Below, one piece after another: positions 10,978-63,076 of a stretch of DNA of 64,000 bases. The stretch spans positions 1,867,001 through 1,931,000 of the forward strand of contig NZ_CP045696.1 of assembly GCF_009676955.1 (NCBI RefSeq), given 5' to 3'. The notes beneath the pieces were generated by a model. That model was not told the DNA's origin and made no database searches. It worked only from the letters and a program-made list of their open reading frames with translations. The DNA comes from Sodaliphilus pleomorphus. Lineage in GTDB: Bacteria; Bacteroidota; Bacteroidia; Bacteroidales; Muribaculaceae. A program made the position numbers and the translations under genes. How positions within the stretch are numbered: the first letter of the stretch is position 1; every line of letters starts with the position of its first letter.

Positions 10978-11107
10978 ACATCTTCAATTGGATTGTTTGT
11001 TGTATCTTTGCATATAGAAGCTATATGTATTGATTTTTAGCACTTTAAGACTAATGCTTTTTCTTGAATCACACAAGAAATGCGGCTTCTTTTTTAGTTA
11101 ATATGCA

Positions 11108-12262: not shown

Positions 12263-12277
12263 TCTGTTCTAATTGAT

Positions 12278-12552
12278 TTAGAAGTTTTCATCTTTTTGTT
12301 TCTCCTGCTGGTAGAACTGATAGAGTTTCTTCCCAATCTTGTCTTTCTTGAATGTTCGCTCATGATTCATCGGTGTCATAGACAAACGTAGTTTTCCTCT
12401 GTTATTGCAGCAGGAATATAGTTGACATCCTGAGTGGTTTTGCTCGCCTCATTTATAAGGTGAGCAAATTGCAACTTAAACTCTTTCAGTGACTTACCCT
12501 TACATAAAACATATCCGTTATGCTTTAATTCTTCGCTATTTTTGAGGGGGGT
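12278..12552 (-). pseudogene. Degenerate ORF between hsdM and hsdS
   Basis: Minus-strand frames read SEELKHNGYVLCKGKSLKEF, then LQFAHLINEASKTTQDVNYI up to a stop, and in the next frame GKLRLSMTPMNHERTFKKD down to a stop at 12278. The two pieces join if a frameshift near 12372 is assumed. There is no start codon directly after the hsdM stop. I do not recognise the family; it may be the remnant of an accessory gene of the RM operon. Confidence 0.45.
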
Positions 12553-12553
12553 A

Positions 12554-14062
12554 CTAATCCTTGCTGATTTCTATTCCTAATATCCGCTGTATTTCTGCCA
12601 ACGTCTTGTCGATCTCGTGGTCGAGAGCCTTGCGCTTCTTGAAGTAGTCGGCGAGGAGTTCGGCAGGAGGAAGTATTTCTTCTTCGTCCTTTGGGAACTT
12701 GCATTGGTCGAAGTTACAATCCATGTCAAGAAGCTGCTGCGCAGTAAAACAGCGTGATTTCTCATCGTTGTTCTCTGCATCCACAATCTCTTGTCGATTA
12801 GTCCACCAGTCGATGATTGGCCGACAGTGTTCAGCTCGCATGGGCTTTGTCTTAGAGAAATGTTTATAGCCTTCTGGCATGTCAAGACGATAGAACCATG
12901 TTTCTTTCGTGCTAAATCCCTCTTCTGCGCCTTCTGCCTTTTCATTGTTGAAGAAAAGGATATTGGTGGCAATTGATGTGTAAGGTGCAAAAATGCTACC
13001 AGGCAATCGGATAATAGTGTGAAGGTTGAACTCACGAAGCAGTTTTTCCTTGATTGCCAGTTTCGCATTGTCGGCGCCAAACAGGAAACCGTCTGGAAGG
13101 ATAACCGCAGCACGGCCTTTTTCGGCAAGACGATACATGATAAGAACCATAAATAGGTCGGCTGTCTCGCTGGAACTCAAATCAGATGGGAAGTGCTGCT
13201 TTATGTCATTTTTCTCGCTACCTCCGTATGGTGGATTCATAAGTATGACATCGAACTTGTCTTCATCTGTGTAATTAAGCACATCCTTTGTCAGAGAATT
13301 GTCGTGCATCACTCTTGGAGAATCAATGTCATGCAGGAGCATATTTGTGACGCACAGCATATAAGGGAATTGCTTTTTTTCAATGCCATAGACTGAATTT
13401 TCATATTCCTCTTTATCTTCTGCCGTCCTCACCTTCTTGTCAAGAGCTTTTAGCCAGCTCGTTATAAAGCCACCGGTACCACAGGCAAAGTCTGCCATCT
13501 TTTCACCAACTTTAGGGTCGATAATTTCTGCCATGAAGTCGGTCAAGGCACGTGGTGTATAGAACTCACCTGCAGAGCCTGCCGACTGCATCTCTTTCAG
13601 GATGGACTCATAAATCTCACCGAAAGCATGGCTTTCTTCATAGTTGCCCAGGTCAAGTTGGTCAATGACATTGATAACCTGGCGAAGCAAAACGCCATCC
13701 TTCATATACTGGTTGGCATCCTCAAAAGTAGTACGAACGATGGCACTACGCATCGGCGTTGAAGGATTAACCTCCAATCCTTTCAACGTGGGGAATAGCG
13801 TATTATTAACGAAATCCAATAAGGCATCGGCAGTTATCGTTTCACCTTCACCATTATCTTTCGCCCAGTTGCGCCATCGGCAATTCTCAGGTATGAACGA
13901 CTTATAATTATCTTCATTAAACTCCCAATCGTTTTCCTTCTCATCATATACTTTCAAAAACAACATCCATGCAATTTGCTCGATACGCTGGGCATCGCCA
14001 TTGATACCTGCATCGTTGCGCATGATGTTTCTGATGCTCTTTACAAAATTGTTAAGTGCCAT
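12554..14062 (-). CDS. hsdM: Type I restriction-modification DNA methyltransferase subunit HsdM
   Basis: 502 residues. Helical HsdM N-terminal domain (about 5-130), then the N6-adenine methyltransferase domain: EFYTPRALTDFMAEI, SAM-binding motif ADFACGTGGF and catalytic NPPYGG. The pathway methylates adenine in the sequence set by HsdS to protect the host. The start lies 6 bp after the hsdR stop, so the genes are one operon. No broken motifs. Composition is AT-rich compared with the backbone. Confidence 0.95.
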   Translation of the reverse strand: MALNNFVKSIRNIMRNDAGINGDAQRIEQIAWMLFLKVYDEKENDWEFNEDNYKSFIPENCRWRNWAKDNGEGETITADALLDFVNNTLFPTLKGLEVNPSTPMRSAIVRTTFEDANQYMKDGVLLRQVINVIDQLDLGNYEESHAFGEIYESILKEMQSAGSAGEFYTPRALTDFMAEIIDPKVGEKMADFACGTGGFITSWLKALDKKVRTAEDKEEYENSVYGIEKKQFPYMLCVTNMLLHDIDSPRVMHDNSLTKDVLNYTDEDKFDVILMNPPYGGSEKNDIKQHFPSDLSSSETADLFMVLIMYRLAEKGRAAVILPDGFLFGADNAKLAIKEKLLREFNLHTIIRLPGSIFAPYTSIATNILFFNNEKAEGAEEGFSTKETWFYRLDMPEGYKHFSKTKPMRAEHCRPIIDWWTNRQEIVDAENNDEKSRCFTAQQLLDMDCNFDQCKFPKDEEEILPPAELLADYFKKRKALDHEIDKTLAEIQRILGIEISKD

Positions 14063-14068
14063 ATCTGG

Positions 14069-16420
14069 TTATGCTATGCTGCTATAAATTAAACTTTCAA
14101 GTTCCTTCACTGCTGAAAAATACTGCTGGTTGCCACCAAAGAATTTTGCTATGTTGGCTGGTGAACCCATTTGCCGGAACGGATCAAGGCGTAGAACCGT
14201 TCTATTCTCCAACTGGGTAATACCATCATTGGCATATTTATCGAGCAATGCTTCCAGTACCTTCCGGGCTTCGGCACCATACTTGTTGAAGATGTCGCGC
14301 TTCTTCACGTTCTCAGCACGTTCACGTCGAGTCAACGGCTTCTTCCCATAAGCGATATGACAGATGAAATCGAAATCATCAACGTCATCCATATTCCTGT
14401 CATGTTTCAACGCTTGCAGGTCAATACCGCTTTCACGGAGTAGGTCTGTAATTTCAGCCTTCTTATCAGCTTTATTCCATCTGTGAATAAAGTCATCAAG
14501 ATTGGCGTAGGTGTTGTTGATGTTCTTTCGGGTATAATCTGTGATGCTCTCTGTGCGAAGAAGTTTGCCGTTGGTATCATATACAGACACTACTTTGTTG
14601 ATAACCTTAACCGTGCATCCATCCTTATCAACAATAGGTTTAGGCGGGCGTTCCGGCTCGGGTTCGCTCACATCCATTGGCTCTTCCTCAATCACTGGAT
14701 AAGGCTTTGGTGTGCCTTTTACATAATTGTCGTTAACCTCAATCGGACCATCCCAGTCGGGGTCGGCAAACAAACGTGTCACATTACGAAAATCCATGAT
14801 TGTGAAATGGGTCTTACCTTCTTTTTCACGGATTCTGGTTCCACGGCCCACAATTTGCTTAAACTCTGTCATAGAACCGATGCGCTGGTCAAGTACAATG
14901 AGTTTAACCATTTTGCAATCTACTCCAGTAGAGAGCAACTTACTTGTAGTGGCGATAACGGGGTACTTGGAAGCGACGGAAATAAAGTAGTCAAGTTTTG
15001 ACTGCCCATAAGGGTCGCTGCCTGTGATACGCACTACATAATCTGGGTTTTTCTTGCACATGTCGGAATTTTCATTGACAAGTGCCGTGCGCATACGGTC
15101 GGCATGGTCTTCGTCGGCACAGAACACAATGGTCTTTGCCATCCTATCTGTGCTCTTCAAGTACTGGGTTATCTCATGTGCAACCTCTCTGATTCTATCT
15201 TCTATGATGATATTGTAATCATAGTCAGAGTTATTATAGATGCGGTCTTCTATGAGGTTGCCGTTTATGTCTCTTTGTCCTTTAACTGGTCGCCATTCAT
15301 CACCAATGTTGGTTGTAATGTTTACAACCTTGAAAGGCGCAAGGAAACCATCTTCAATACCTTCCTTTAGGCTATATGTATAGATAGGCTTCCCAAAATA
15401 ACTGATGCTGGACTGGTATTTTGTTTCCTTTGGGGTTGCAGTCATACCCAGTTGAATTGCACCATCAAAGTATTCCAGTATTTCACGCCAGTTGCTATCA
15501 TCTTTGGCACTTCCGCGATGGCACTCGTCAACGATGACCATATCAAAGAACTCTGGCTTAAACAGCTCCTTGTAGTTCTGTTTCCCTTCTTTCCCAATTA
15601 GCTGCTGGTAAAGAGAGAAATATACTTCGTATGCTAAGTGTCCACCATGTGTATCAATGTCGCTCTGATAATCTACTTTATGGATTGTACTTGACAGGGG
15701 CTTAAAGTCTTGCTGAATAGACTGGTCAACCAAAACATTTCGGTCAGCCAGATACAAGACTTTCTTTACTAAACCAGCTTTGAGAAGACGATAAACTATT
15801 TGGAAAGCAGTATATGTCTTACCCGTTCCTGTCGCCATGACAAGCAACAAGCGGTTTCTACCTTGTGCAACCGCATTGACGGTACGGTTCACGGCGTTAC
15901 GCTGGTAGTATCGAGGTGGGAAAATGTCTTGTCCTGTGCAGTACGGCTGATCGATGATTTTCTTTTCTTCATCCGAGAAGCCTTTACCACCATTACTCTC
16001 AGTAAGGAATCGAGCATATAATTCTTCTTTCGTTGGAAAGGCATCCATCGAGAAAGAACGTTCCTTTCCTGTCAGGAAATCATATTCTTGATAACCTTGG
16101 CCATTGGAACTGAAAGCAAAAGGAATATCCATCATTTGGGCATATTCCTTTGCCTGTTGCATTCCAAATGAGACTGTATGATTTGCGTCCTTGGCTTCAA
16201 CAATGGCAATGGGGGTGGCACGATTGTAATAAAGCATATAGTCTGCAAACTTAGCTTTACCACGAGCCACTAAATTTCCTCTAAGGTTAATCTTGCCATC
16301 TGTAAGTTTAACCTTAGTCTCCATAGTTATGTCTTCTACCGACCATCCCTTTTTTAGTATGGATGGAGTGATGTACCGTAGTTTTATGTCTTCTTCAGAC
16401 AGTGCCAGTATATTATCCAT
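14069..16420 (-). CDS. hsdR: Type I restriction endonuclease subunit HsdR
   Basis: 783 residues from the ATG at 16420 (a TTG two codons upstream is less likely). N-terminal nuclease-type HSDR_N region with IAIVEAKD (the E-x-K of the PD-ExK site), SF2 helicase motor with Walker A ATGTGKT and DECHRGS, helicase motif VI region QIVGRGTRIREKEG, and an EcoEI-type C-terminal domain. It cuts unmethylated DNA after ATP-driven translocation. First gene of hsdR-hsdM-hsdS; about 780 residues is normal for the EcoEI-like subtype. Confidence 0.95.
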   Translation of the reverse strand: MDNILALSEEDIKLRYITPSILKKGWSVEDITMETKVKLTDGKINLRGNLVARGKAKFADYMLYYNRATPIAIVEAKDANHTVSFGMQQAKEYAQMMDIPFAFSSNGQGYQEYDFLTGKERSFSMDAFPTKEELYARFLTESNGGKGFSDEEKKIIDQPYCTGQDIFPPRYYQRNAVNRTVNAVAQGRNRLLLVMATGTGKTYTAFQIVYRLLKAGLVKKVLYLADRNVLVDQSIQQDFKPLSSTIHKVDYQSDIDTHGGHLAYEVYFSLYQQLIGKEGKQNYKELFKPEFFDMVIVDECHRGSAKDDSNWREILEYFDGAIQLGMTATPKETKYQSSISYFGKPIYTYSLKEGIEDGFLAPFKVVNITTNIGDEWRPVKGQRDINGNLIEDRIYNNSDYDYNIIIEDRIREVAHEITQYLKSTDRMAKTIVFCADEDHADRMRTALVNENSDMCKKNPDYVVRITGSDPYGQSKLDYFISVASKYPVIATTSKLLSTGVDCKMVKLIVLDQRIGSMTEFKQIVGRGTRIREKEGKTHFTIMDFRNVTRLFADPDWDGPIEVNDNYVKGTPKPYPVIEEEPMDVSEPEPERPPKPIVDKDGCTVKVINKVVSVYDTNGKLLRTESITDYTRKNINNTYANLDDFIHRWNKADKKAEITDLLRESGIDLQALKHDRNMDDVDDFDFICHIAYGKKPLTRRERAENVKKRDIFNKYGAEARKVLEALLDKYANDGITQLENRTVLRLDPFRQMGSPANIAKFFGGNQQYFSAVKELESLIYSSIA

Positions 16421-16457
16421 ATGCAACTTCCGATAAGTGTATATTATGGAGATATAT

Positions 16458-16467
16458 TACAAAGATA
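16458..16467 (-). promoter_or_regulatory. -7 box for the hsdRMS operon
   Basis: Minus-strand TATCTTTG (plus CAAAGATA at 16460-16467) is a good Bacteroidetes -7 box, about 40 bp upstream of hsdR. Confidence 0.6.
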
Positions 16468-16572
16468 CTTGTTTTTTGCGAAAAAGAGTCCTTTGCATTC
16501 CGTTTTATATTTAATGCTGATTATTCAGACGTAGATTCCAAAACGAAGTGCAACATTGAGGAGGCTACATTA

Positions 16573-16600
16573 TTGCCCCAAGGGTTGCCCACGATGGTGA
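16573..16600. repeat. 28-bp direct repeat, right copy (RM island boundary)
   Basis: Same as 10898-10925 with one base changed (CCCCAAGGG for CCCCAGGGG). Together the copies bracket about 5.65 kb holding the RM operon. Confidence 0.75.
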
Positions 16601-16696
16601 GCATGAGCAGCAGCGATGACATCCATGGTGATGCCCAGACCGCCGCACAGGAGCCAGAAGAGATTGGCAAGCGTTCTTATTTCGATTTATTGTTGC
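16573..16696 (-). pseudogene. N-terminal fragment of the YccF-like gene, right half
   Basis: The minus strand reads IEIRTLANLFWLLCGGLGIT, then shifts frame to SSLLLMLTIVGNPWGNN. This is the N-terminal half of a YccF protein (usual form LGNLLWLIFGGL). The expected ATG is an ATC, and one frameshift lies near 16625, so the fragment is decayed. Its C-terminal half is at 10837-10931. The 16421-16813 interval otherwise holds only the hsdR promoter and a terminator. Confidence 0.6.
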
Positions 16697-16753
16697 ACAT
16701 TTTGCCACAAAGAAAGATAGCAACTGTCTCCCAACCATCACCACAAAAACAAG

Positions 16754-16794
16754 CACAAAGCCCTGGAAGCTACCAGGGCTACCAGGGCTTTGTG
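16754..16794 (-). terminator. Terminator downstream of the M6 metalloprotease gene
   Basis: A 13-bp perfect stem: CACAAAGCCCTGG (16754-16766) with CCAGGGCTTTGTG (16782-16794). On the minus strand it is followed by a T-rich stretch (TGTTTTTGTGG). Confidence 0.75.
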
Positions 16795-16813
16795 GGCACG
16801 GGTTGCACTCCCG

Positions 16814-19309
16814 CTATTGCAGGATGATGTGGATGAGCGCGGTCACGTCGGTCACGTTTAGACTGCCATCGCCATTGAGGTCACCTGCCTCCAAGTCGAG
16901 TTGCCCGTTTCCTAAAATGGCATTAATGATGACCGATACATCGGTCACATTTACCTGGCCGTCGCCGTTCAGGTCACCCCGCAGGCCAGTGCCTTGCAGG
17001 TTGACCATGAGCTGCTGGCTCCAGGGAGAGAGCGAGCCGTCGGGGTACACGGCCTGCACCTGGCAGGCATAGGTACGGTTGCTGTCAAGGCCTTGCACTG
17101 TGTAGCAAGTGTCGGCAATGTTGCCCACCGAGAGCTGCGTCGAGTCGGGCACTGCTACTGGAAGGCCCGCCATGAGGCTGGCCGCGACATCGCCGGCATA
17201 GATGTCTACATGCTTGAGTTGCACGCGCTTCTTGGCCTCGGTGTTTTCTATTTTCAGCACATTGCTGGTTGTGCCTTGGCCCGTGAGCTTGAAAATATAC
17301 ACCGAGTCGTTGCTGGCAAGCGTTTCGGCATGGGTGTCAATCGCATTGCCGCTCTCGTCGAGCCAGGAGACTTTCATGGCCACGCCCTTGTCGTAGCCAT
17401 AGGCCCTTGCTGCAACCGCCACTGTAGTGACCCCGTTGCAAGCTGTGAGGTCGATTTCAGGACTGGAGATGCTGCCGCATTGCTGTGAGGTGCCCAAGCG
17501 CAGATAGCCCTTGTCCTTATAGGTGCCCTTGTTGCTCTCGGTCCAGGTGGTTGCGCCGTCGGCGAGATTTTCGGTGATTATCTTCCAGCTCGACGGAGCT
17601 TGCTTGGAGTCGTAGAGCCACAGCGTGTAGTGTGCCTGTGTGCTGTCGACCGGTTGCCAGTGGGCGGTGAATGATGATGCCGTGAGCTGGGTGGGGGTGG
17701 TCAATACAGGCCGGTCGTGCTTCTCGACTTTCTTAATGTACCAAAACGATGCTGTCCCGTCGGCGTTTAGGTTGATGTCGGTGACGGGCTTGCCCAGCAT
17801 GCCGGCATTGCCGTCGATGGTGCCGTCGGCAGCGAGGTAGAGATCGGCCTTGGGTGCCGACCCGTCGGTAAAGCTGTGATTGCTCTTGCCGTAGAGGTCG
17901 GTCGACACGGTGGCATGACTGGCTACGGCATCGGCCGGGACAAAGGTCATGAGTTGCACTTTCTCGTTGTTGACCGTGTTTTTGTCCCACCTGCTGGGCA
18001 CATAACTCACATGGGTGATGAGCACGCCCTCGTCGGGGATGTAGCTGTCCCAACCTTGCTTGGCCCGGTTTTCGAGAATGTAGTACTCGTTGCTGTTGAG
18101 CTCGCTGGTGATTTTCACAGCCACGTCGGTCGAGTCGCTGCCCTGATTAAACCTGGGCAGCACATATCGTGTGTTGCCCACAGGTGTGGCCAGGTCGAGC
18201 CATCCCATGTAGTTTTTCTCATAGGCATTGTAGCCAATGGGAGTGTAGCCGCCGTTGTTGTAGCATCCATAGTCGAGCAGGCTCCAGCAGTCCATGCCCA
18301 CATATCCAAACATGTAGGTGGTTTCGTAGAAATCGGGCAGACCCAGGCAATGTGAAAACTCGTGGCAGAAGGTGCCTATTCCGTCCATCTTTGTGCCGCT
18401 GTCGTCGGAACCGTTGACCTCGTTGAACACTGCAAACTTGTCGACCTTGGTGCCTGCATAGGTGAGTGCGCCTGGGCCGTCGCCATAGTGTGCTGCCTCG
18501 GTCAGGTTCCACTGGCAGGGCCAGATGGAATTGGGCACAGTGAGCGCGGCTTGGGCCTCACCCACGCCGGCATACACGACGATAACCACATCGCAGTCGC
18601 CGTCGCCGTTGTTGTCGTAGTCGGTCCAGTTTATCTTTCCTTCGGCTTGTGCTTTCTCACAAGCTTCGGCCACCATGCGGGCCACGCCTGCATCCTTGGC
18701 AGCAGTGCCACTGTCTTTTCCATAGGTCTCTCGTGTGTTGTCGAGCGTGTAGATGCCAAACACATCGAAGCGCGGATTGTACTTGCCGTTGGACTGGTCT
18801 TGAAAATACTGGTTCACGCTGGCAGCACCTTGCGTGTACTGGGCCACAAAGTCGTCTTTGGTGTGCGACATGGCCTTGTCCTTGTATTGCACAAGCAGGA
18901 TGGGTATGCGCGGGCTGCCGCTGTGAGGCACCTGGCTGTGCAGTCGTTGCGCATTCACGGCTTTTATCAATCGGCGTGCAGGCTCATTCATCAGTGTGCC
19001 CAACTTGAGCTGCCGGGCTTCCCGGGCAAGAAACGATTTCTCGATTGCACTGCGCAGCTCTGGGTCATGGGCCATCACCGTAGTAGGGCCGTCTGCCGTA
19101 AGATAGCAGTAGCTGCCTGAGCTGTCCTTGGCCACAGCGAGGCCGTCGCGGGTGACAATGACGTGGCCAAACTCGTCGCCGGCCACGCCGAGTGTGAGCT
19201 GCGACCCATCGGGCTGGGTCACCTCTACACGCTGCCGCATGGCTGGCACCGCAAGCGCAGTGCTGCATGCCCAAAGCAGAGCTCCTGTTGCAAGTAATAT
19301 TTTTTTCAT
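16814..19309 (-). CDS. Secreted M6-family (immune inhibitor A-like) metalloprotease with dockerin-like C terminus
   Basis: 831 residues. Signal peptide (MKKILLATGALLWACSTALA), a propeptide-like region, then the M6 catalytic domain with the zinc site HEFSHCLGLPD at residues 316-326 (H-E-x-x-H with a downstream GLPD). A fibronectin-III-like segment follows (about 560-760). The last 55 residues carry two D-x-N-x-D-G type repeats (GDLNGDGQVNVTDVS and GDLNGDGSLNVTDVT), as in type I dockerins. Related Bacteroidales proteins are exported proteases. It lies downstream of a large secreted protein on the same strand with a hairpin between them. Confidence 0.88.
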   Translation of the reverse strand: MKKILLATGALLWACSTALAVPAMRQRVEVTQPDGSQLTLGVAGDEFGHVIVTRDGLAVAKDSSGSYCYLTADGPTTVMAHDPELRSAIEKSFLAREARQLKLGTLMNEPARRLIKAVNAQRLHSQVPHSGSPRIPILLVQYKDKAMSHTKDDFVAQYTQGAASVNQYFQDQSNGKYNPRFDVFGIYTLDNTRETYGKDSGTAAKDAGVARMVAEACEKAQAEGKINWTDYDNNGDGDCDVVIVVYAGVGEAQAALTVPNSIWPCQWNLTEAAHYGDGPGALTYAGTKVDKFAVFNEVNGSDDSGTKMDGIGTFCHEFSHCLGLPDFYETTYMFGYVGMDCWSLLDYGCYNNGGYTPIGYNAYEKNYMGWLDLATPVGNTRYVLPRFNQGSDSTDVAVKITSELNSNEYYILENRAKQGWDSYIPDEGVLITHVSYVPSRWDKNTVNNEKVQLMTFVPADAVASHATVSTDLYGKSNHSFTDGSAPKADLYLAADGTIDGNAGMLGKPVTDINLNADGTASFWYIKKVEKHDRPVLTTPTQLTASSFTAHWQPVDSTQAHYTLWLYDSKQAPSSWKIITENLADGATTWTESNKGTYKDKGYLRLGTSQQCGSISSPEIDLTACNGVTTVAVAARAYGYDKGVAMKVSWLDESGNAIDTHAETLASNDSVYIFKLTGQGTTSNVLKIENTEAKKRVQLKHVDIYAGDVAASLMAGLPVAVPDSTQLSVGNIADTCYTVQGLDSNRTYACQVQAVYPDGSLSPWSQQLMVNLQGTGLRGDLNGDGQVNVTDVSVIINAILGNGQLDLEAGDLNGDGSLNVTDVTALIHIILQ

Positions 19310-43136: not shown

Positions 43137-44195
43137 ATGCCATCCAACAAGAATGCACTCACCCGAATCGTACTGCTCGACAAGCTGCTTGCCGACCGCT
43201 ATCATGCCTATTCCATACATGACATGACCCTCTGTCTTGAGCGGGAGTTGCCCAAATACGGGCAAGTGGGCGGTGTGAGCAAGCGCTGTGTCGAGAAGGA
43301 TATCGAGTATCTGGAGTATAACTTCCCGATACCGATAGAGCTTGAACGCTACACGGTAGATGCTCAAAGCGCGGCTACCGACAAGGTCTATAAAAAGAGA
43401 TGCCTGCGCTACAGCGACCCCACCTTCTCCATCTTCAAGGGAAAACTCACCGCCGAGGAGAAGGGAATCCTCACCACGGCTCTTGCGACCATCGGCTCCT
43501 TCGACGGACTCGACGGTTTCGGGTGGCTCGACGACCTGAACAAGCGGCTTGGACTCGTCGAGCAACAGCCCGTGATTCAATTGTCGAAAAACCTGCTCGA
43601 AAACAAGACGCTCATGGCCGAGGCTTTTTCTGCAATCCAAGCGCACGCGGTGGTCAAGTTGCAATACAAGCGGTTCGATGCATCGCACATGTGCGAGGTC
43701 ATCATATCGCCCTACTTGCTTAAAGAGTATAACCAGCGGTGGTACTTGATAGGGGCTGCCTACGACACTGGCCGTGTGCTCAATTTTGCACTCGACCGCC
43801 TTGTGTCGATCGCCGTGCTGCCGGGTTATGAGTACCGGCAGGCGCCTGCCGACTTGCTGGAGCGTTATGAAGACATCGTCGGGATCACTTACTACGAGGG
43901 TGCACAGCTGTACAAGATTGTCTTTTGGGTCTCCGACAAGTCGGCACCCTATGTCGCTACCAAGCCGTTGCATGGGTCTCAAATCAGATACAAGGGGGAG
44001 CGTGAAGCCGCCCTGCGCCAGCAGTATCAAGCACCGCCTCAAGGTGCCTTGTTCTCGATAGCTTGCATGGAGAATTATGAGCTCATACGCGAGCTGTGCT
44101 CTTATGGCGGGGAGTTGAAAGTGCTCTCGCCCCAGCCCATAATCGACGCAGTGACGAGCAGAATAAAGGAGATGGCCACACTTTACGGCTTGTGA
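43137..44195 (+). CDS. WYL-domain transcriptional regulator
   Basis: 352 residues from the ATG at 43137. N-terminal winged-helix region (RIVLLDKLLADRYHAYSIHD; GGVSKRCVEKDIEYLEYNF) and a C-terminal WYL domain (VVKLQYKRFD ... YNQRWYLIGAAYDTG, then NFALDRLVSIAVLPG). WYL proteins bind nucleic-acid or nucleotide signals and often control defence genes. It is the first gene of the plus-strand block that leads to the retron. The link to the retron is inferred from position. Confidence 0.88.
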   Translation: MPSNKNALTRIVLLDKLLADRYHAYSIHDMTLCLERELPKYGQVGGVSKRCVEKDIEYLEYNFPIPIELERYTVDAQSAATDKVYKKRCLRYSDPTFSIFKGKLTAEEKGILTTALATIGSFDGLDGFGWLDDLNKRLGLVEQQPVIQLSKNLLENKTLMAEAFSAIQAHAVVKLQYKRFDASHMCEVIISPYLLKEYNQRWYLIGAAYDTGRVLNFALDRLVSIAVLPGYEYRQAPADLLERYEDIVGITYYEGAQLYKIVFWVSDKSAPYVATKPLHGSQIRYKGEREAALRQQYQAPPQGALFSIACMENYELIRELCSYGGELKVLSPQPIIDAVTSRIKEMATLYGL

Positions 44196-44222: not shown

Positions 44223-44230
44223 TATCTTTG
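44223..44230 (+). promoter_or_regulatory. -7 box for the WG-repeat gene
   Basis: TATCTTTG followed by CAT, 25 bp before the start codon at 44255. Confidence 0.6.
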
Positions 44231-44254
44231 CATCGAAATTTAAAAACAACCCCT

Positions 44255-44698
44255 ATGGACGACAAGCAATATCGACGCACAAAACCACCCATCAATTCTC
44301 GCATCACAGTAGTTCAGAACAGCGACTACAAGTGGGGCGCGATCGACGAGCAGGGCAATGTGGTCGTCCCCTTCGGCAAATATGCCTGGATTGATGGTTT
44401 CCAGAATGGATTGGCCAAGGTCATAGGCTACAACGACTCCATGTCGCCCAACATAGTCCTGCATTTTACTAATTGGGGCGATGATAATGACATGGCCGAC
44501 GACACCCGAGTTGCCGCGCAGGGTATCGTCAACGAGGCTGGCGACGAGGTGCTCCCATTGGAATACAACATCTGGAAGTTCTACGGCAAGGATTACCCTA
44601 CCATAAAGTACTTTAAAGGTGAAGAAGAGCACACGGCGACTTTCCAGTCGCTCAATCCTTCACTTGCCACCGAGAAGAAAAATAACAAGAGTGAATGA
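44255..44698 (+). CDS. WG-repeat-containing small protein
   Basis: 147 residues from the ATG at 44255. Two or three WG-type repeats are visible: YKWGAIDEQGNVVVPFGKYA, then GLAKVIGYND, and AQGIVNEAGDEVLPLEYN. WG repeats are thought to bind proteins. No signal peptide is present. It lies between the WYL regulator and the retron RNA gene on the same strand, separated from the retron by about 60 bp. Function unknown; it may be part of the retron locus. Confidence 0.75.
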   Translation: MDDKQYRRTKPPINSRITVVQNSDYKWGAIDEQGNVVVPFGKYAWIDGFQNGLAKVIGYNDSMSPNIVLHFTNWGDDNDMADDTRVAAQGIVNEAGDEVLPLEYNIWKFYGKDYPTIKYFKGEEEHTATFQSLNPSLATEKKNNKSE

Positions 44699-44721: not shown

Positions 44722-44729
44722 TAACTTTG
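44722..44729 (+). promoter_or_regulatory. -7 box for the retron ncRNA
   Basis: TAACTTTG followed by CATAG, 31 bp before the start of the a1 repeat. It predicts a transcript start at about 44737. Confidence 0.65.
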
Positions 44730-44736
44730 CATAGTA

Positions 44737-44980
44737 ATCGAAAGAGAACAGAGAACATTGAAGTATTGGGCTAAAGAAACATTTTGAACCTGCCCGGCGA
44801 TTGGTCGGGTACTTTCCCCTCGGGGAATTTCCAACGGTCAGTTGGCTCTGGGCACTTATCACATCATCAAGCTGATGTGATAGTGCGTATGAATCTGGGA
44901 AAATTACACCCTCCTATGTCATAGAGTTAATTTCTCAGCCAAAGCGAAACAAAGAAAATAGTCTTGGCCCAATGCTTCTT
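44737..44980 (+). ncRNA. Retron msr-msd non-coding RNA
   Basis: a1 at 44760-44774 (GAAGTATTGGGCTAA) pairs with a2 at 44964-44978 (TTGGCCCAATGCTTC) in 15 continuous base pairs, two of them G-U. Inside are msr-like hairpins at 44791-44811 (stem UGCCCG/CGGGUA) and 44814-44827 (TTCCCC/GGGGAA), a 5-bp hairpin at 44831-44845 (CCAAC/GTTGG), and a strong 14-bp stem with one bulged base at 44852-44886 (GCACTT...TGATGTGATAGTGC), fitting the msd. The G at 44776 just after a1 is a candidate branching guanosine. The reverse transcriptase start codon lies 30 nt after a2. The msr/msd boundary is inferred. Confidence 0.8.
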
Positions 44981-45008
44981 TTTTATTTTTTTTTTTCTAC
45001 CTGATAGA

Positions 45009-46643
45009 ATGGATAAAGAACTGCTGATAAGTAAAATACGCAACACCACCACACGGTGGAAACTGCTGGATCTGCTCAACGAAATCAAGGCCGACCTGGC
45101 AGGCACGGCCGCCTATCCATTCACCATGAGCAAGATGATGCGCCTGTGCAATCCCAGGATAGGCTTAGATCGTTACCACTCATTTGAGATACCCAAAAAG
45201 TCGGGAGGAGTCAGGTTGATTTTTGCCCCCGAGGGCAACCTGAAGTGGATGCAGCTGTGCCTCAACGAGATTTTCAAGGCACTCTACACGCCTTCGCCCT
45301 ATGCTATGGGATTTACCCAAGGGCGCTCGATCGTGAGCAATGCCGTGCGGCACTTGCATCAGAACTATGTGTTCAACATCGACTTGTGCGACTTTTTTCC
45401 GAGCATCAGCCAGGCACGCGTGTGGAAGCGCTTGCAATTGCCGCCGTTCAATTTTACCAAAGATGTGGCCAGCGTGGTTGCCGGGTTGTGCTCGATTAGG
45501 ATGCTGGATATAGTCGACGGCAACGTGCGGCTCGTCTCCTACAAGCTGCCTCAAGGCGCCCCCACATCGCCGTTGCTCACCAATGCAATATGCGACACGC
45601 TCGACCGGCGGCTGGCGGGGCTTGCACGGCGGTTTGGCCTGCACTACACCAGGTATGCCGACGACATCACATTCAGCTCGATGCACAATGTGTATCAGGA
45701 TGGCAGCCCGTTCAGGCACGAACTGGAGCGCATCGTCTCGGGGCAGCATTTCAAGATCAATGCCAAGAAAACCCGCCTCAACCACCGTGGCGAGCGCCAG
45801 GAGGTGACTGGCCTCACCGTGGGCGAGAAGGTGAACGTTGCCCGCCGCTATGTAAAGGACGTGAGGGCCATTCTTCACATCTGGGAAAGATATGGCATGA
45901 ATGCGGCTGTTGCAAAGTTTTATCCTCGATACAAGACCGAGAAGGGCTCTCTCCACAACGGCGACCCCGACATGGAGAATGTGATCGCGGGGAAACTTTG
46001 CTACCTGAAGATGGTGAAGGGCCAGCACGACCCGGTTTATGTCAAGTTGCAGGAGCAGTTCGACCGTCTCACCAGTGCAAAGCCCGAAGCTCATGACCTC
46101 GAAATAAGCTGGGAGTATCTCCAGACCCTGCCCACGAGCGACTTTGAGGCTCAGCTCGGCGTCAAGATTGACTATGGCATTTCCAATCTTGGCAAGCAGT
46201 ATGCCAGCTTTGTCTTCAACGGCAAGAAAATTTATGCGTCGGTGAGCCGTAACATCTCAATCAGCAATCTTCCCAAAAGCTTGTACATCTCCCTGTGCCG
46301 CCAAATTGATTACAAGGTGAAATATACCGGCGAAGCAAGCCAGCGACATGCCGTGATAGATCCCGGCACGCCTTACGGGCGCATGATGCTCGGTTGTCCG
46401 CTGCCCGAAGACCTGGCTGTGAGATACATCTATGTGGTGCACAGGGCTCTTCCCAAGGACAAGCCGTTGAAGTATGTGCACACCCCGCAAGTCGCCCCCG
46501 AGCTAAAAGACATAGTGGGCAAACTCAATGAGCTCATGCCGGGTGCACTCACTGCCGACGGCGCCCTGCTGGCCGGTGATAGACCCAAAGACACCTTGAC
46601 GCAACTTGTCGAGTCGGGTTTCGACCTCTCAATCCTACCGTGA
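45009..46643 (+). CDS. Retron reverse transcriptase with a ~190-residue C-terminal extension
   Basis: 544 residues from the ATG at 45009 (upstream frame is a T-rich artefact). RT motifs in order: FAPEGNLKWMQ, NAVRH at 111-115 (the retron NAxxH motif), VFNIDLCDFFPSI (motif A, 121-133), LPQGAPTSPLLTNAICD (motif B), YADD at 216-219 (catalytic) and VTGL at 266-269 (retron motif 7 VTG). About 190 further residues (from about 355) have no recognised domain, making it larger than classical retron RTs of about 320 residues. It copies the msd from the upstream RNA. The next gene starts 1 nt after its stop. Confidence 0.9.
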   Translation: MDKELLISKIRNTTTRWKLLDLLNEIKADLAGTAAYPFTMSKMMRLCNPRIGLDRYHSFEIPKKSGGVRLIFAPEGNLKWMQLCLNEIFKALYTPSPYAMGFTQGRSIVSNAVRHLHQNYVFNIDLCDFFPSISQARVWKRLQLPPFNFTKDVASVVAGLCSIRMLDIVDGNVRLVSYKLPQGAPTSPLLTNAICDTLDRRLAGLARRFGLHYTRYADDITFSSMHNVYQDGSPFRHELERIVSGQHFKINAKKTRLNHRGERQEVTGLTVGEKVNVARRYVKDVRAILHIWERYGMNAAVAKFYPRYKTEKGSLHNGDPDMENVIAGKLCYLKMVKGQHDPVYVKLQEQFDRLTSAKPEAHDLEISWEYLQTLPTSDFEAQLGVKIDYGISNLGKQYASFVFNGKKIYASVSRNISISNLPKSLYISLCRQIDYKVKYTGEASQRHAVIDPGTPYGRMMLGCPLPEDLAVRYIYVVHRALPKDKPLKYVHTPQVAPELKDIVGKLNELMPGALTADGALLAGDRPKDTLTQLVESGFDLSILP

Positions 46644-46644
46644 T

Positions 46645-47490
46645 ATGGCAGAGCAGAACAAAGACAACCTGAGGAAGTTGTTGCGCTTCCTCGATGCAGA
46701 GATTATCCACAAGCCAGAGAACCGCTGGTTTGTGGATGAATTGCGCAGTGCTTTGCCTCGGGGTGCTGTTGTGGAAAGCGGCGCTTGCAGCTCATCGGTC
46801 AAAAAAATCGAGAAGTATCTGGCCCTTGACTACAAACTGGACCACGCCCAGGCGGCGCTCGACTATTCCTCGATCAAGGACGACTATATGCGACAATGCT
46901 TTGAGGCCGATTGCCGCGAGATGCTGCGTTTCCGCTTCGGCCTCAGGGGGCACTGCATCGATTTCGGGGAGTTTTGCCGCTTTGCCCAGATTCAGGCCGA
47001 GCGGCTACTCAACATGTACTATAGTACCAAGGGCACGCTGCCCGAGATAAAAGCCTACATCAAGAAATATAATGAAGAAGCGGCCTGGATTGATCATGGC
47101 AAAACGCTGGAGGACATCAGTTATTCGGTTAAACTGTGGGCATTTACCCATGAGTATAAGCTGCAACCTCTATTCAGAACGCTCGACAATGTGCGGAAAG
47201 TGAGAAACACCCACAGCCACGGCTCGACCTCAAGCGCCGACGAGCAATTCTTCCAGAGTCACTACACCATGCTTGTAGAAGCCGGTTACCCTCTACAGCC
47301 CAGTTGCCGTGTCGATTGGGAAGCCCTGAAAAATGACAAGTCGAAAAACGAGATTTACTTCAACACCATAAGGTACACCTCCGAGCACAAGCGATACATC
47401 GACTTGTGCTGGCAACGCCGCCAGCCCTTCGATGAAGTGATCAAGGCGCTCGAGGAGCTCATCCTTCAGGTCACGGCTCACACAAACTGA
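46645..47490 (+). CDS. Retron-associated protein with HEPN-like RNxxxH motif (candidate effector)
   Basis: 281 residues. The start ATG is 1 nt after the RT stop, so the genes are surely co-expressed. The protein appears mostly helical and soluble, with no signal peptide. Residues 187-192 read RNTHSH in the context VRKVRNTHSHGS, fitting the HEPN ribonuclease active-site motif (R-N-x3-H), preceded by a helical stretch (LQPLFRTLDNVRKV). No ATPase, transmembrane or protease motif is visible. I do not recognise a named family. If it is the effector, the expected role is RNA cleavage after phage sensing, held in check by the RT-msDNA complex; this is inference. Confidence 0.6.
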   Translation: MAEQNKDNLRKLLRFLDAEIIHKPENRWFVDELRSALPRGAVVESGACSSSVKKIEKYLALDYKLDHAQAALDYSSIKDDYMRQCFEADCREMLRFRFGLRGHCIDFGEFCRFAQIQAERLLNMYYSTKGTLPEIKAYIKKYNEEAAWIDHGKTLEDISYSVKLWAFTHEYKLQPLFRTLDNVRKVRNTHSHGSTSSADEQFFQSHYTMLVEAGYPLQPSCRVDWEALKNDKSKNEIYFNTIRYTSEHKRYIDLCWQRRQPFDEVIKALEELILQVTAHTN

Positions 47491-59394: not shown

Positions 59395-60363
59395 CTATTG
59401 CTGAATGCTGTAGATGAAGTTGGCCACCGTCTGGCCCACAGCCTTGAGCGTGCCCTTGTCGATGTTGTCGAGCGTGTCGTGGGTGGTGTGCCAGCCACTG
59501 AAGAAGCCCGATGGCGATTGACGCATGTCGACGATGTCGACACAGGGTATCTGGTTGTCGATGAGCGGCTTGTGGTCGTCGGTCACATAGCCCAGCTTTT
59601 GGGCGATGAAGTACTTGCCATAGCCCGCGTCGGCAGCTGTGGCCCATATGCTCTCGACCAGCGACGGGGCGGCGTCGACCGAGAAGCCTTCCTGGTAGAA
59701 GGTGGCACCCTTGGCGCCCACCATGTCGAGCAAGATGCCATACATGGGAGCATAGTAGGGCACGTGAGTGTGGTGCACCCAGTATTGCGTGCCCAGCGCC
59801 CAGCTCTCGTCGATTGAGTCGGTGCCCCAGTCCTCGGCATCGTCGAGCAGGATGTCGACGCCCACGCCCGGGCGCTTCTGCTTCATGATGCGGGCCAGCT
59901 CGAGCAGCACAGCCACGCCGCTGGCAGCATCGTTGGCGCCCATCACAGGCATGTGACGCTTGGCCGGGTCGGGGTCGTTGTCGGCCCAGGGACGGCAATC
60001 CCAGTGAGCCATGAGCAGAATGCGCTTCTCGGCATCGGGATTGATCACGCCTATATAGTTGGTGGCGTGCAGCACCTTGCCGTCGTGGGTGGTGAGGTCG
60101 GCATGCTGCGTGTACACCGTGTCGCAGTATCGGGCGAGCTGCGCCTCGAGATAGGCCCCGCACTGCTCATGGGCGGGAGTCGAAGGCACGCGGGGGCCGA
60201 AGTCGCACTGTGCCTTCACGTGGGCATAGGCGCTGTCGGCGTTAAAGTTCACCACGGCCTGGGCGGGAGCATCGCTCGCCTCGCGGGCCGCGTCTTGCTT
60301 GCCGCCACAGCTTGCAAGCAAGGCTGCTGCGGCGACTATCGAGATAAAATCAAGCATTTTCAT
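59395..60363 (-). CDS. M28-family zinc peptidase (glutaminyl-cyclase-like) lipoprotein
   Basis: 322 residues. Lipoprotein signal with AAAALLASCGGK. Zinc ligands in the M28 order: MAHWDCRPW, GANDAASGVA, LLDDAEDWG, and the last His/Asp in SGWHTTHDTLDN. The FGPRVPSTPAHEQCG N-terminal motif is typical of bacterial glutaminyl-peptide cyclotransferase-like enzymes, which form N-terminal pyroglutamate in the periplasm. Bacteroidetes members may do this on exported proteins. Confidence 0.87.
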   Translation of the reverse strand: MKMLDFISIVAAAALLASCGGKQDAAREASDAPAQAVVNFNADSAYAHVKAQCDFGPRVPSTPAHEQCGAYLEAQLARYCDTVYTQHADLTTHDGKVLHATNYIGVINPDAEKRILLMAHWDCRPWADNDPDPAKRHMPVMGANDAASGVAVLLELARIMKQKRPGVGVDILLDDAEDWGTDSIDESWALGTQYWVHHTHVPYYAPMYGILLDMVGAKGATFYQEGFSVDAAPSLVESIWATAADAGYGKYFIAQKLGYVTDDHKPLIDNQIPCVDIVDMRQSPSGFFSGWHTTHDTLDNIDKGTLKAVGQTVANFIYSIQQ

Positions 60364-60385
60364 CAGTCCATTCTATTTGAATTTA

Positions 60386-60393
60386 CAAAAGTA
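60386..60393 (-). promoter_or_regulatory. -7 box for the M28 peptidase gene
   Basis: Minus-strand TACTTTTG about 23 bp upstream of the start codon at 60363. The 60364-60675 gap otherwise holds the plus-strand promoter below and a region (60420-60560) of unclear origin. Confidence 0.45.
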
Positions 60394-60641
60394 CTAAAAA
60401 AACTTTGTTCTCTCCCCCCTTAAAATAAAAAACTGATTTTAAGCCCAAAGTTTCGGGGCAGGGGAGCGTAATCCAATAGTTGACGTGAGTGATACACTAA
60501 ACGCACAACAGAGGGCAGGGCACAGAATCCCCCGTTCGTTTTAGTATTAGCGATGGCGAGGACAATCAGAGTTGTAGGGGGGCTGTGTCGTGATAGCATA
60601 GGTTTATTTAGAAAACATACTGCTAATCCGTTTATCTTTTG

Positions 60642-60649
60642 TACATTTG
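60642..60649 (+). promoter_or_regulatory. -7 box for the AlbA_2 protein gene
   Basis: TACATTTG, 26 bp before the start at 60676. Confidence 0.55.
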
Positions 60650-60675
60650 CGAAATTAATATTAAGTGGAAGCAAC

Positions 60676-62346
60676 ATGACTAAGCAAGAAATATCAGAAT
60701 ATATACGTACCCAATTCCCCAAAGAAAATGAGAGTTGTGACTGGAAAGAGTATAAGAATTTGCAAAATAGTCTTTGCGGTCATGAAGGTGACGATGTGGT
60801 TTCCTATGTATCTGCTATCTCTAATATGAATGGTGGTGCCATTGTTGTAGGCATTCAGGATAAGACTTTTGAAGTTGTTGGAATTCAAAATTTTGGGAAC
60901 TACAACATCGAATCAGCGAAGGCTCGTATTGCTGAGAAATGTCGGAATCTTCCAACTGAAAATCTAGAAATTACAGAATTGAAGGCAGACGATACCGATA
61001 CTGTTGTTTGGATCATATCTGTTCCCAAGCATAGACCAAAGTTGCCGGTCTATGCTCATAATAAAGCTTGGCAGAGAATTGGTGACTCTTTGATTGAAAT
61101 GAAAGAAGAAAGGTTGCAGTCAATTCTCTCAGAGCTGTTAATTACGGACGATTGGAGTGTGGCTATTGTTCCTAATGCCACTTTGGATGATTTGGATTCT
61201 GAAGCAATAGAAAAAGCAAGAAAGGAATATACTGTTCGTAATCCATACCGAAAAGCTGAAATTTCAGCATGGGATAATAAGAAGTTCCTTGATAAAGCAA
61301 AAATAACAATAAATGGAAAAATAACGAGAGCAGCATTGGTACTATTAGGAAAAGAAGAGAGCGAGTATCTGCTTAGCCCTTATGTTGCTTGTATTCGATG
61401 GTCTTTACGTTCTGTAGGGTCTATGCAAAATAAAGACTATGAAATATTGACAATGCCATTGCTATTGAGTGTTGATAAGCTGTATAACAAAGTTCGCAAT
61501 GTAAAATACCGACTTGTAAGGCCAGACTCCCTTTTTCCTGAGGAAATGTTGCGGTATGATATGTTTAACATACGTGAGCCACTGAATAATGCTATTGCAC
61601 ATCAGGACTATACAAAATGTGCAAGAATAGAAGTAGTGGAATATGAAGATGATCATATTATTTTCCAAAATTATGGTGATTTTTTGCCTCAAAATGTTGA
61701 AAATGTTGTCATTAAGGATTGCCCGGAGTCAGTATATCGTAATCGTTTCCTTGTAGAAGCGATGCGTAATCTGAATATGATTGAGACTGAAGGTGGTGGC
61801 ATTAAAAAGATGTTTGTTAACCAACGTATGAGATTCTTCCCGATGCCGGAATACGATTTGTCTGATGGAAAGGTTAGGGTAACTATTACAGGTAAGGTAA
61901 TTGATGAAAACTTTGCCCGAATACTGGCAGATAACCCAAACCTTGGTCTTGAAGATATTATGTTGCTTGATAAAGTACAGAAACAGAAAACAATTACGGA
62001 CGATCAGTTGGTTTATCTAAGGAAACATAAATTCATCGAAGGGCGTAAGCCTCATTTCTTTTTGGCTCATAAAGTCGTGTCGAGAACAAGGAGTACTAAG
62101 ATGAAAAGTCAATATATTAAGAATAGAAGCTTTGATGATGAATATTTTATGAAATTGATAGTTGAATATCTGAAAAAGTTTGGTAAAGCTTCACGCAAGG
62201 ATATCAATGAGTTGCTCATGGATAAATTATCGGATGTTTTGGATAGCACGCAAAAGAGGCATAAGATAGATTATCAATTGAAGAAGCTTAAAGATTCAGG
62301 AAAAATTAATTTTGGTGAAGACCACAAGTGGATTCTTGCTGAATAA
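60676..62346 (+). CDS. Schlafen AlbA_2 / HATPase-type ATP-binding protein
   Basis: 556 residues from the ATG at 60676. Residues about 15-130 are a Schlafen AlbA_2 domain (ESCDWKEYKN; VSAISNMNGGAIVVGIQDKT). Residues about 250-420 contain an HATPase_c_4-type region (NNAIAHQDYTKCARIEVVEY; NLNMIETEGGGIKKMFVNQR), the typical domain pair of these putative transcriptional or defence regulators. The C-terminal part has winged-helix-like helices (DEYFMKLIVEYLKKFGKASRKD). Notably AT-rich, so likely acquired. Role unknown; homologues appear near defence genes. Confidence 0.85.
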   Translation: MTKQEISEYIRTQFPKENESCDWKEYKNLQNSLCGHEGDDVVSYVSAISNMNGGAIVVGIQDKTFEVVGIQNFGNYNIESAKARIAEKCRNLPTENLEITELKADDTDTVVWIISVPKHRPKLPVYAHNKAWQRIGDSLIEMKEERLQSILSELLITDDWSVAIVPNATLDDLDSEAIEKARKEYTVRNPYRKAEISAWDNKKFLDKAKITINGKITRAALVLLGKEESEYLLSPYVACIRWSLRSVGSMQNKDYEILTMPLLLSVDKLYNKVRNVKYRLVRPDSLFPEEMLRYDMFNIREPLNNAIAHQDYTKCARIEVVEYEDDHIIFQNYGDFLPQNVENVVIKDCPESVYRNRFLVEAMRNLNMIETEGGGIKKMFVNQRMRFFPMPEYDLSDGKVRVTITGKVIDENFARILADNPNLGLEDIMLLDKVQKQKTITDDQLVYLRKHKFIEGRKPHFFLAHKVVSRTRSTKMKSQYIKNRSFDDEYFMKLIVEYLKKFGKASRKDINELLMDKLSDVLDSTQKRHKIDYQLKKLKDSGKINFGEDHKWILAE

Positions 62347-62353
62347 TGTAGAA

Positions 62354-62397
62354 TTCAGCAAATTTTCAGCAATTTTTCGGCAGATTTTCAGCAAAAT
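62354..62397. repeat. Four 11-bp tandem repeats after the AlbA_2 gene
   Basis: Units TTCAGCAAATT, TTCAGCAATTT, TTCGGCAGATT and TTCAGCAAAAT lie head to tail, beginning 7 bp after the stop codon. No coding role seen. Confidence 0.8.
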
Positions 62398-62494
62398 AAG
62401 TATGTAACAGACTGATAGCTAGTACTTACATAATTAAAAGAAATGTTGAATCTGTGTGTTATTTCGGCAAGAAGAGCTTAAAAGAAATAACGAT

Positions 62495-62708
62495 ACTGTT
62501 TCTTTGAGTGTGTCTGAAGGGAGACACAAAAACAGGACCTGCCCGTTTTGCGCAGGTCCCCATAAGCTTGTAAAAATTAGATGACTTAAACTCAAAATCT
62601 AAAAAATGCTTCTTACAAAGGAACAAAGATAAATATGTATCTTTTGCATCGTCATTCGAGGCCTACAGGTGTGTATGAACTCGCCTCAGACACACTCGCT
62701 GAAACACT
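62495..62708. repeat. Imperfect 29-bp inverted repeats bounding a 214-bp segment
   Basis: ACTGTTTCTTTGAGTGTGTC continuing TGAAGGGAG (62495-62523) matches the reverse complement of 62680-62708 at about 23 of 29 positions, with a perfect 12-bp core GAGTGTGTCTGA. The segment could be a MITE-like element or a large hairpin. Nothing coding is visible inside; it holds the hairpin at 62535-62559. Confidence 0.55.
62535..62559 (+). terminator. Hairpin downstream of the AlbA_2 gene
   Basis: GGACCTGC (62535-62542) pairs with GCAGGTCC (62552-62559). No clear T-run; possible terminator for the AlbA_2 gene or for the region on the minus strand. Confidence 0.45.
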
Positions 62709-62713
62709 ACCAT

Positions 62714-63076
62714 TCATTGTACCTGTAGTTTAGTTGTTTTAATGATGTTTTGAGTTCTGTATCTTGCTATGATGATAGGCGTATCTAAATGATCAAGCGG
62801 TATTACACTTGATTGCTGTATATTCCCACTAAAAATTGATTTGCCATGTATATCAAAAATAGAAAGATATAATAGCTTGGGGGTATTTACATGTAATCTC
62901 TTGTTCCTGATGTGTAGGCTTATTTTATCAAGGCCTATTTCCTCGAGTGCCGACGCTTTCAAAAGCTCGTCTAAGTCCGTCTTCTCAATATAATCGTTTA
63001 TGGAGTAGATTGGGGAGCATATCCTGGTTCCATCGTAGAGAAGTGCGCAAAGTCTAAAATAGGTGCCCCAGTAAAA
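62714..63076 (-). pseudogene. C-terminal fragment of a T9SS-type secreted protein
   Basis: About 120 codons on the minus strand, open between a stop at 63077 and the stop at 62714, with no ATG start. It reads FYWGTYFRLCALLYDGTRIC, then SPIYSINDYIEKTDLDELLK, and ends KLLYLSIFDIHGKSIFSGNI with a T9SS-like sorting tail (YLSIFDIHGKSIFSG). The first part resembles the last strands of an fn3 module. It is the remnant of a larger surface protein next to the inverted-repeat element. Confidence 0.5.

Follow-up and report, generated by a model that had tools for sequence, protein, structure and literature searches.

A retron locus of Sodaliphilus pleomorphus with a conserved RNA and a HEPN-like partner protein encoded in trans

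We analysed a stretch of 64,000 nucleotides (nt) from Sodaliphilus pleomorphus (Bacteroidota, Muribaculaceae; assembly GCF_009676955.1, contig NZ_CP045696.1, positions 1,867,001 to 1,931,000 of the forward strand), hereafter called the window, whose source genome is a single contig of 3.34 Mb. At window positions 44737-47490 lies a retron locus that consists of an RNA gene, a retron-type reverse transcriptase (RT) gene and a partner gene, the ATG of which (46645) follows the end of the RT stop codon (46643) after a gap of 1 nt. Our study proposes, with a probability of about 0.72, a retron with a toxin of the HEPN ribonuclease type that is encoded in trans and held by the RT together with its multicopy single-stranded DNA (msDNA). 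An earlier note, made from the sequence alone, had described the locus as complete and compact; the RNA, the RT and the partner are indeed all present, but the conserved neighbourhood is wider and includes a WYL regulator gene and often a gene for a WG-repeat protein. The principal features are the following, with coordinates of the window and protein lengths in amino acids (aa).

44722..44729, + strand: -7 box of the Bacteroidota type, TAACTTTG, ahead of the retron RNA
44737..45008, + strand: retron non-coding RNA gene (msr-msd), defined by fold, 19-locus alignment and covariance model; 5' and 3' ends approximate
45009..46643, + strand: retron RT of 544 aa, with the RT at about aa 1-360, a small beta-rich domain at about 368-434 and a C-terminal tail ending in LVESGFDLSILP
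46645..47490, + strand: effector of 281 aa, with an N-terminal two-helix hairpin (aa 3-36, the proposed dock) and a HEPN-like domain (R187, N188, H192)

The RT and its partner recur as a unit. A profile built from an alignment of five effectors was run over 84,980 species genomes and yielded 13 loci, and a retron RT lies directly upstream of the effector in all 13 of them, as it does in five of five new loci from a class search. In addition, L068:505-2163 is a single open reading frame (ORF) of 552 aa that combines a retron RT with a HEPN-like domain carrying RNDESH. This natural RT-HEPN fusion is comparable with the single-gene retron types XI, XII and I-C. A sample independent of the effector was obtained by searching 200 relatives with the RT, which gave some match in 45 and a match at an expectation value (E) of 1e-60 or lower in 15; these 15 RTs are followed by HEPN-type effectors (seven), by HisKin-conflict proteins (PF22561; six) or by no recognised effector (two, of which one lies close to the end of its contig). 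Close relatives of the window RT bear one of two effector kinds, HEPN or HisKin-conflict. In a tree of 46 RT cores, in which the window RT groups with L048-L050 (100/100), the two effector labels interleave with six label changes, at least three of which are forced by well-supported branches, and the HEPN locus L105 and the HisKin locus L041 are sisters at 100/86. Against 500 shuffles, which were as low in 72 and 68 cases, the labels show no excess of clustering at the 5% level, a pattern that fits effector exchange but also a lack of resolution.

The HisKin-conflict loci deserve a description of their own. L032, L034, L035, L039, L041 and L043 have a retron RT of the same clade followed by a HisKin-conflict protein, and L044 and L071 are RT-HisKin fusions. 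In these eight loci the next gene usually encodes a receiver-like protein of about 200 aa (with a VIIVDDRPERRK-type start in L034, and without a Pfam match), and the arrangement has the look of a retron coupled to a module of two-component-like type. A HisKin search of the genome of the window gave no match, and its controls were equally silent. We also observed that L048 and L049 are two distinct retron loci of the same type on two contigs of one metagenome-assembled genome (MAG; JAAVDT01), which may represent two copies or mixed strains.

The RNA gene upstream of the RT contains the following elements.

44760..44777, + strand: a1, 5' arm of the terminal inverted repeat, pairing with a2 (-23.4 kcal/mol)
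44780..44787, + strand: conserved CATTTTGA box, with TTT nearly invariant in alignment A8
44791..44811, + strand: msr stem-loop 1, with compensatory changes
44814..44827, + strand: msr stem-loop 2, predicted fold
44831..44845, + strand: stem-loop 3, CCAAC/GTTGG, predicted fold
44852..44886, + strand: long hairpin, predicted fold
44949..44958, + strand: conserved ACAAAGAAAA immediately 5' of a2, from the 19-locus alignment
44962..44978, + strand: a2, 3' arm of the terminal inverted repeat, from the own-versus-cross pairing test

The RNA at 44737-45008 has a folding energy of -88.3 kcal/mol, which corresponds to z = -4.9 relative to 200 shuffles, and its conservation was assessed in an alignment of the region 5' of the RT from 19 loci (17 HEPN and 2 HisKin). 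The arms a1 and a2, whose ends were chosen by eye, pair with a mean of -32.8 kcal/mol within their own locus versus -15.5 kcal/mol across loci; the locus's own a2 ranks first in 14 of the 19, second in four and third in one, and none of 10000 permutations reached the observed sum. Stem-loop 1 is paired in 87.6% of cells versus 75.8% when shuffled, with 24 both-side-change cells versus 7.6 and a covariation score of 0.474 versus 0.260, while versions slid along the alignment scored 0.145 at most; a repeat with 16 rows gave 89.1% paired, 22 versus 7.8 and 0.543 versus 0.294. The number of pairs with both-side changes was, however, unremarkable, since 56 of 500 shuffles and, in the repeat, 41 of 500 were as high. 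A covariance model, R1, built without L055, L057 and L060 (L055 had been in the earlier alignment A2), found one site in the window and one genome-wide, namely its own training RNA. Among 29 sources other than the window, R1 gave held-out matches at E < 0.01 in L078 (6e-7), L055 (0.0038) and L043 (0.0077), each of them 5' of an RT, and weak ones in L101 (0.52) and L040 (0.75); on the other side, it missed loci that do have sequence upstream of the RT, including L039, L041, L044, L057, L060, L071 and L079, and several of the other missed sources have no sequence 5' of the RT at all. Rfam gave no matches.

Judging from the folding model, the long hairpin is likely to be the msd, the template of the msDNA stem; L048-L050 have a hairpin at the matching place with other sequence and length. 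The G at 44786, within the CATTTTGA box, is a candidate for the priming guanosine. As the earlier note had claimed, the RNA gene has its own box, TAACTTTG at 44722-44729, which agrees with TAnnTTTG, the -7 consensus of this phylum. A single match of this kind is weak evidence, because TAnnTTTGC occurs 19 times in the window versus 6.9 expected. A scan for terminators and promoters gave no matches above chance. TAnnTTTG lies 150-300 nt 5' of the RT in 19 of 25 inspected loci, as a raw count without shuffle control. The a1/a2 pairing within loci and the covariation of stem-loop 1 bear out that the RNA is conserved in homologous loci. Together with the retron class of the RT, they support the reading of the locus as a retron that has a conserved RNA of its own and a partner transcribed along with the RT.

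The partner protein carries the motif RNTHSH at residues 187-192. Across all 15 aligned members (alignment A4), R187, N188 and H192 never vary, in spite of a mean column identity of 37%, and an earlier helix of the family carries F107, C111, Q117, E119 and N123. All 24 HEPN-type effectors have RN followed by H after two or three residues (RNxxxH in 19, RNxxH in 5). The AlphaFold2 model, computed from 14 sequences, is all-helical with a predicted local distance difference test score (pLDDT) of 84.4, and R187-N188 close its long helix 174-191. A relative in L054, 33-34% identical to the window effector, reaches the Pfam family DUF4145 with 24.7 bits (cut-off 23.1) in a match that covers the motif, and PMC3710099, in its accessible part, counts DUF4145 among the HEPN families. 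When the effector family was compared by hhalign with nine DUF4145 domains, it gave P = 0.0016 with the motifs in register, versus 0.11 at best for 20 column shuffles, 0.61 for the reversed family and 0.23 or more for three other alignments. The protein is akin to DUF4145 and other HEPN families in its all-helical model, in a conserved motif ending in H and in the score of L054.

Several observations weigh against this assignment. The pattern RN...H occurs in 2.8% of 20000 shuffles of the window effector, so in one sequence alone it is weak evidence and could be due to chance. DUF4145 is reached at E <= 1 by only three of the 15 members, and two of these three have an E above 0.03; the probability given by hhalign itself is only 15.8%; and the nine fetched DUF4145 domains read GNxxxH and not RNxxxH. 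The window effector is not recognised by DUF4145 and matches no family in Pfam, NCBIfam or PADLOC, and Foldseek against the PDB and BFVD returned nothing at E <= 0.001, the best matches (HepS 9oij and MtlR 6kcr) having E of about 1-4 only. Wider searches were of little help: NCBIfam across the 15 members gave one meaningless match (E 0.093), PADLOC gave CARF_HEPN_CSX20 (E 0.0067) and Cas7g (E 0.041), on neither of which we rely, and the family profile found no HEPN protein chain in the PDB by sequence. Phages and plasmids contained no match to the effector, and among viral contigs 78 stretches fit the pattern with no relative among them. Taking both sides together, we regard the effector as HEPN-like with fair but not full confidence.

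These negative results would also suit a retron whose all-helical effector has no nuclease function; RN...H would then be structural and the protein would act by binding, for example as a scaffold or as an inhibitor of translation or replication. This explanation is favoured by the absence of a significant Foldseek match, by the absence of any family match for the window protein and by the weak hhalign probability, but we consider it unlikely: the motif is preserved in all 15 members at such low overall identity, the L054 protein exceeds the cut-off of a HEPN family, and the joint invariance of R and H is hard to explain without catalysis. The earlier note had reported none of the ATPase, HNH, transmembrane, nucleoside deoxyribosyltransferase or protease motifs in the effector, which is in line with the zero families found by PADLOC and Pfam, and had called it possibly novel. 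No library names the window protein, so that part stands; its family, on the other hand, has a HEPN motif, and HEPN effectors are known for type IX retrons (PMC13405049, in its accessible part).

The RT itself is retron-type, as our results support. The motifs NAVRH (111-115), YADD (216-219) and VTG (266-268) stand where the earlier note had placed the retron hallmarks, and the NAxxH, YADD and VTG residues are invariant across 16 aligned RTs. The PADLOC models rank it as RT-Protease_XI (348 bits), RT-TIR_XII (312), RT-Toprim_I-C (285) and RT_XIII (263). Its closest solved structures by sequence (phmmer) are Ec67/Eco2 (E 6.6e-39, the best) and Ec86, and Foldseek on the RT model places retron RTs of the PDB at ranks 1-14, a group II intron RT at rank 15 and DRT9 at rank 37; these scores and structure matches speak against a position outside the retron clades, which the note had named as a way to be wrong. 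The AlphaFold2 model has a pLDDT of 69, with values in the 70s for the beta-rich domain at about 368-434 and a poorly predicted tail, and the last 180 residues (C-terminal domain alignment A9) have no relative in Pfam or the PDB.

Given this ranking, one might see here an ordinary retron of type XI, XII, I-C or XIII whose effector is degenerate or displaced, since the RT domain matches precisely those models best. We judge this improbable. The RT-Protease_XI match is limited to RT aa 41-362 and profile positions 23-326 of 510, which leaves the protease half (327-510) unmatched; the best stretches for RT-TIR_XII and RT-Toprim_I-C cover positions 41-337 of 475 and 24-317 of 529, respectively; and the only Pfam family in the RT is RVT_1. 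Thus no fused protease, TIR or Toprim was detected, whereas L047 spans the entire RT-Toprim_I-C profile. The C-terminal domain has no PDB relative and the effector has no PADLOC accessory match. The likeness to type XI (RT-protease), type XII (RT-TIR) and type I-C (RT-Toprim, Eco2/Ec67) thus lies in the RT domains, which are the closest ones; in those types the effector is fused to the RT (single-gene systems in PADLOC), whereas the window RT lacks such a half and is followed by a HEPN-like protein encoded in trans. We reject membership of types XI, XII and I-C because of the missing halves, and that of type XIII, which has accessory proteins, because the effector matches no PADLOC model. A search of genomes with the PADLOC XI family returned mostly unrelated proteases, matched through the protease half.

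Type IX is among the closest known systems. In retron-Kva2, according to the accessible text of PMC13405049, the RT and RNA hold a HEPN ribonuclease whose activation leads to tRNA cleavage; a HEPN effector restrained by a retron RT and RNA is likewise what we predict for the window locus from its sequence. The same source describes for Kva2 a winged-helix protein as a component of its own and a HEPN protein of 19 kDa without the canonical motif (H64/R122). In the window, no gene for a winged-helix protein intervenes between RNA, RT and effector, the effector has 281 aa with RNxxxH, and the RT scores 145 bits with RT_IX versus 348 with XI. We reject type IX membership on these scores and on the gene order. 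It is very improbable that the RT has a non-retron role of the defence-associated, DRT or Abi kind next to an unrelated RNA, although DRT and AbiA systems likewise join RTs with RNAs or HEPN domains, given that retron models and retron structures dominate the matches, with DRT9 far behind, and that the RNA is flanked by the a1/a2 inverted repeats; AbiA, an RT with a C-terminal HEPN domain, shares the combination of RT and HEPN but belongs to the Abi class, whereas the RT of the window is of the retron class and comes with an msr-msd RNA (AbiA and DRT after the accessible parts of PMC3710099 and PMC8934634).

The possible exchange of HEPN and HisKin-conflict effectors raises the matter of how the RT may recognise its partner. 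RT tails and effector N-termini were compared over 30 loci (24 HEPN and 6 HisKin; L078, which has no adjacent effector, was left out of the Mantel test), and their similarities correlate with r = 0.72 (Mantel p 0.0001) and, given RT-core identity, with 0.58 (p 0.0005), while the correlation of the tail with the toxin domain given the N-terminus falls to 0.14 (p 0.016); all these p-values are optimistic because related sequences are not independent. Individual loci agree with the general trend: L036 and L060, whose effectors belong to one HEPN subtype, differ in the effector N-terminus, and in each the RT tail matches its own N-terminus; the HEPN locus L103 and the HisKin locus L043 share an N-terminus (similarity 0.45, against 0.03 for the toxin domains) and have tails of one kind. 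Less favourable cases are the HisKin loci L032, L034, L035, L039 and L041, which have no close N-terminal partner, and one N-terminal type that occurs with two visibly different tail types. The effector N-terminus is modelled as a two-helix hairpin (3-21 and 24-36). The co-variation suggests a plug-in docking pair, in which the RT tail would bind the effector hairpin.

From the parts of the locus, their conservation and their co-occurrence we infer an msDNA, a binding contact, a ribonuclease activity and a trigger, combined as follows. The RT would make msDNA from the RNA at 44737-45008, and the RT-msDNA particle would keep the HEPN protein inactive, the C-terminal tail of the RT gripping the N-terminal helical hairpin of the effector. 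A phage protein that disturbs the msDNA would then release or activate a HEPN dimer, which would cleave RNA (tRNA, by analogy with type IX) and in this way stop the growth of the infected cell. In outline this follows what is reported for Kva2 of type IX (PMC13405049), although the proposed connection differs and no winged-helix partner takes part. The upstream WYL protein may control how strongly the operon is expressed, perhaps with single-stranded DNA as the signal. More tentatively, the locus may represent a new retron type of Bacteroidota with an RT-RNA chassis, whose tail would be the socket and the effector N-terminus the plug, so that canonical HEPN ribonucleases and histidine-kinase-like (HisKin-conflict) effectors could be exchanged on one sensor, under the control of a WYL regulator that perhaps responds to single-stranded DNA.

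HEPN retron effectors are already known from type IX (PMC13405049, accessible part), and we did not find the present arrangement in the accessible papers on retrons and HEPN proteins, which is not a claim that it is absent from print. If our reading is true, retrons have reached HEPN ribonucleases by a second, independent route, here with the canonical motif and in a close RT clade whose classified members mostly have fused effectors. The co-variation of RT tails and effector N-termini would offer a concrete answer, open to testing, to the question of how retrons can swap toxins and still keep control over them. In practical terms, current models would call the window RT type XI (RT-protease) though the protease is absent.

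Two genes precede the RNA.

43137..44195, + strand: transcription regulator with WYL and WCX domains (Pfam WYL E 1.4e-10, WCX E 2.9e-8), 352 aa when read from the ATG at 43137, a start inferred from relatives
44255..44698, + strand: WG-repeat protein, 147 aa (Pfam WG_beta_rep E 1.3e-9)

A same-strand WYL relative lies within 4.3 kb upstream of the RT in 12 of 17 HEPN loci, three of five HisKin loci and none of five other RT loci, L048 and L049 being from one MAG. A WG-repeat relative is present upstream of the retron in seven of the 17 HEPN loci (the window, L048-L051, L058 and L030), and a further TAnnTTTGC box was observed 5' of the WG gene at 44223-44231. Within the genus, 96 of 101 genomes have some WYL match and 16 a strong relative (E < 1e-60), and 10 of the 11 genomes with an RT at E <= 1e-60 fall among these 16; the WYL gene is not always adjoining, as it lies about 4 kb downstream in G012 and on another contig in G099, G074 and G003. 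The WYL gene is not specific to retrons, because the same subfamily also precedes ATPase-like and other genes (read from sequence) in genomes in which no close RT was found. The WYL proteins DriD (PMC12340889) and PafBC (PMC11804915) respond to single-stranded DNA according to the accessible parts of these papers, and a link between the WYL protein and msDNA is speculation on our part. The gene resembles regulators of the CapW, BrxR and DriD type, WYL proteins that adjoin defence systems, and in their accessible parts the sources on these regulators (PMC12340889, PMC9122601, PMC9122588) contained no tie to a retron operon that we could find.

The retron block is a variable insert, because its flanking genes, one for a DUF2851 protein and one that is type II dehydroquinase-like (named from its own sequence, without a family search), are 6.5 kb apart in the window, about 2.9 kb apart in G040 and about 1 kb apart in the congeners G015, G038, G039 and G047, which have a single ORF of 319-330 aa between them. 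HAD-like and phosphoribosyltransferase-like genes (read from sequence) follow the effector in L031:5416-6743 and the WYL gene in L115 and L116. The genome of the window contains two distant RT-like matches elsewhere, at G000:C1:2649655-2650146 (E 2.9e-8) and 355147-355623 (E 6.6e-5). Finally, the window includes two stretches of low G+C content, 11001-17000 and 60001-63000 (0.35-0.45 versus about 0.58 around them), which are possible acquired segments.

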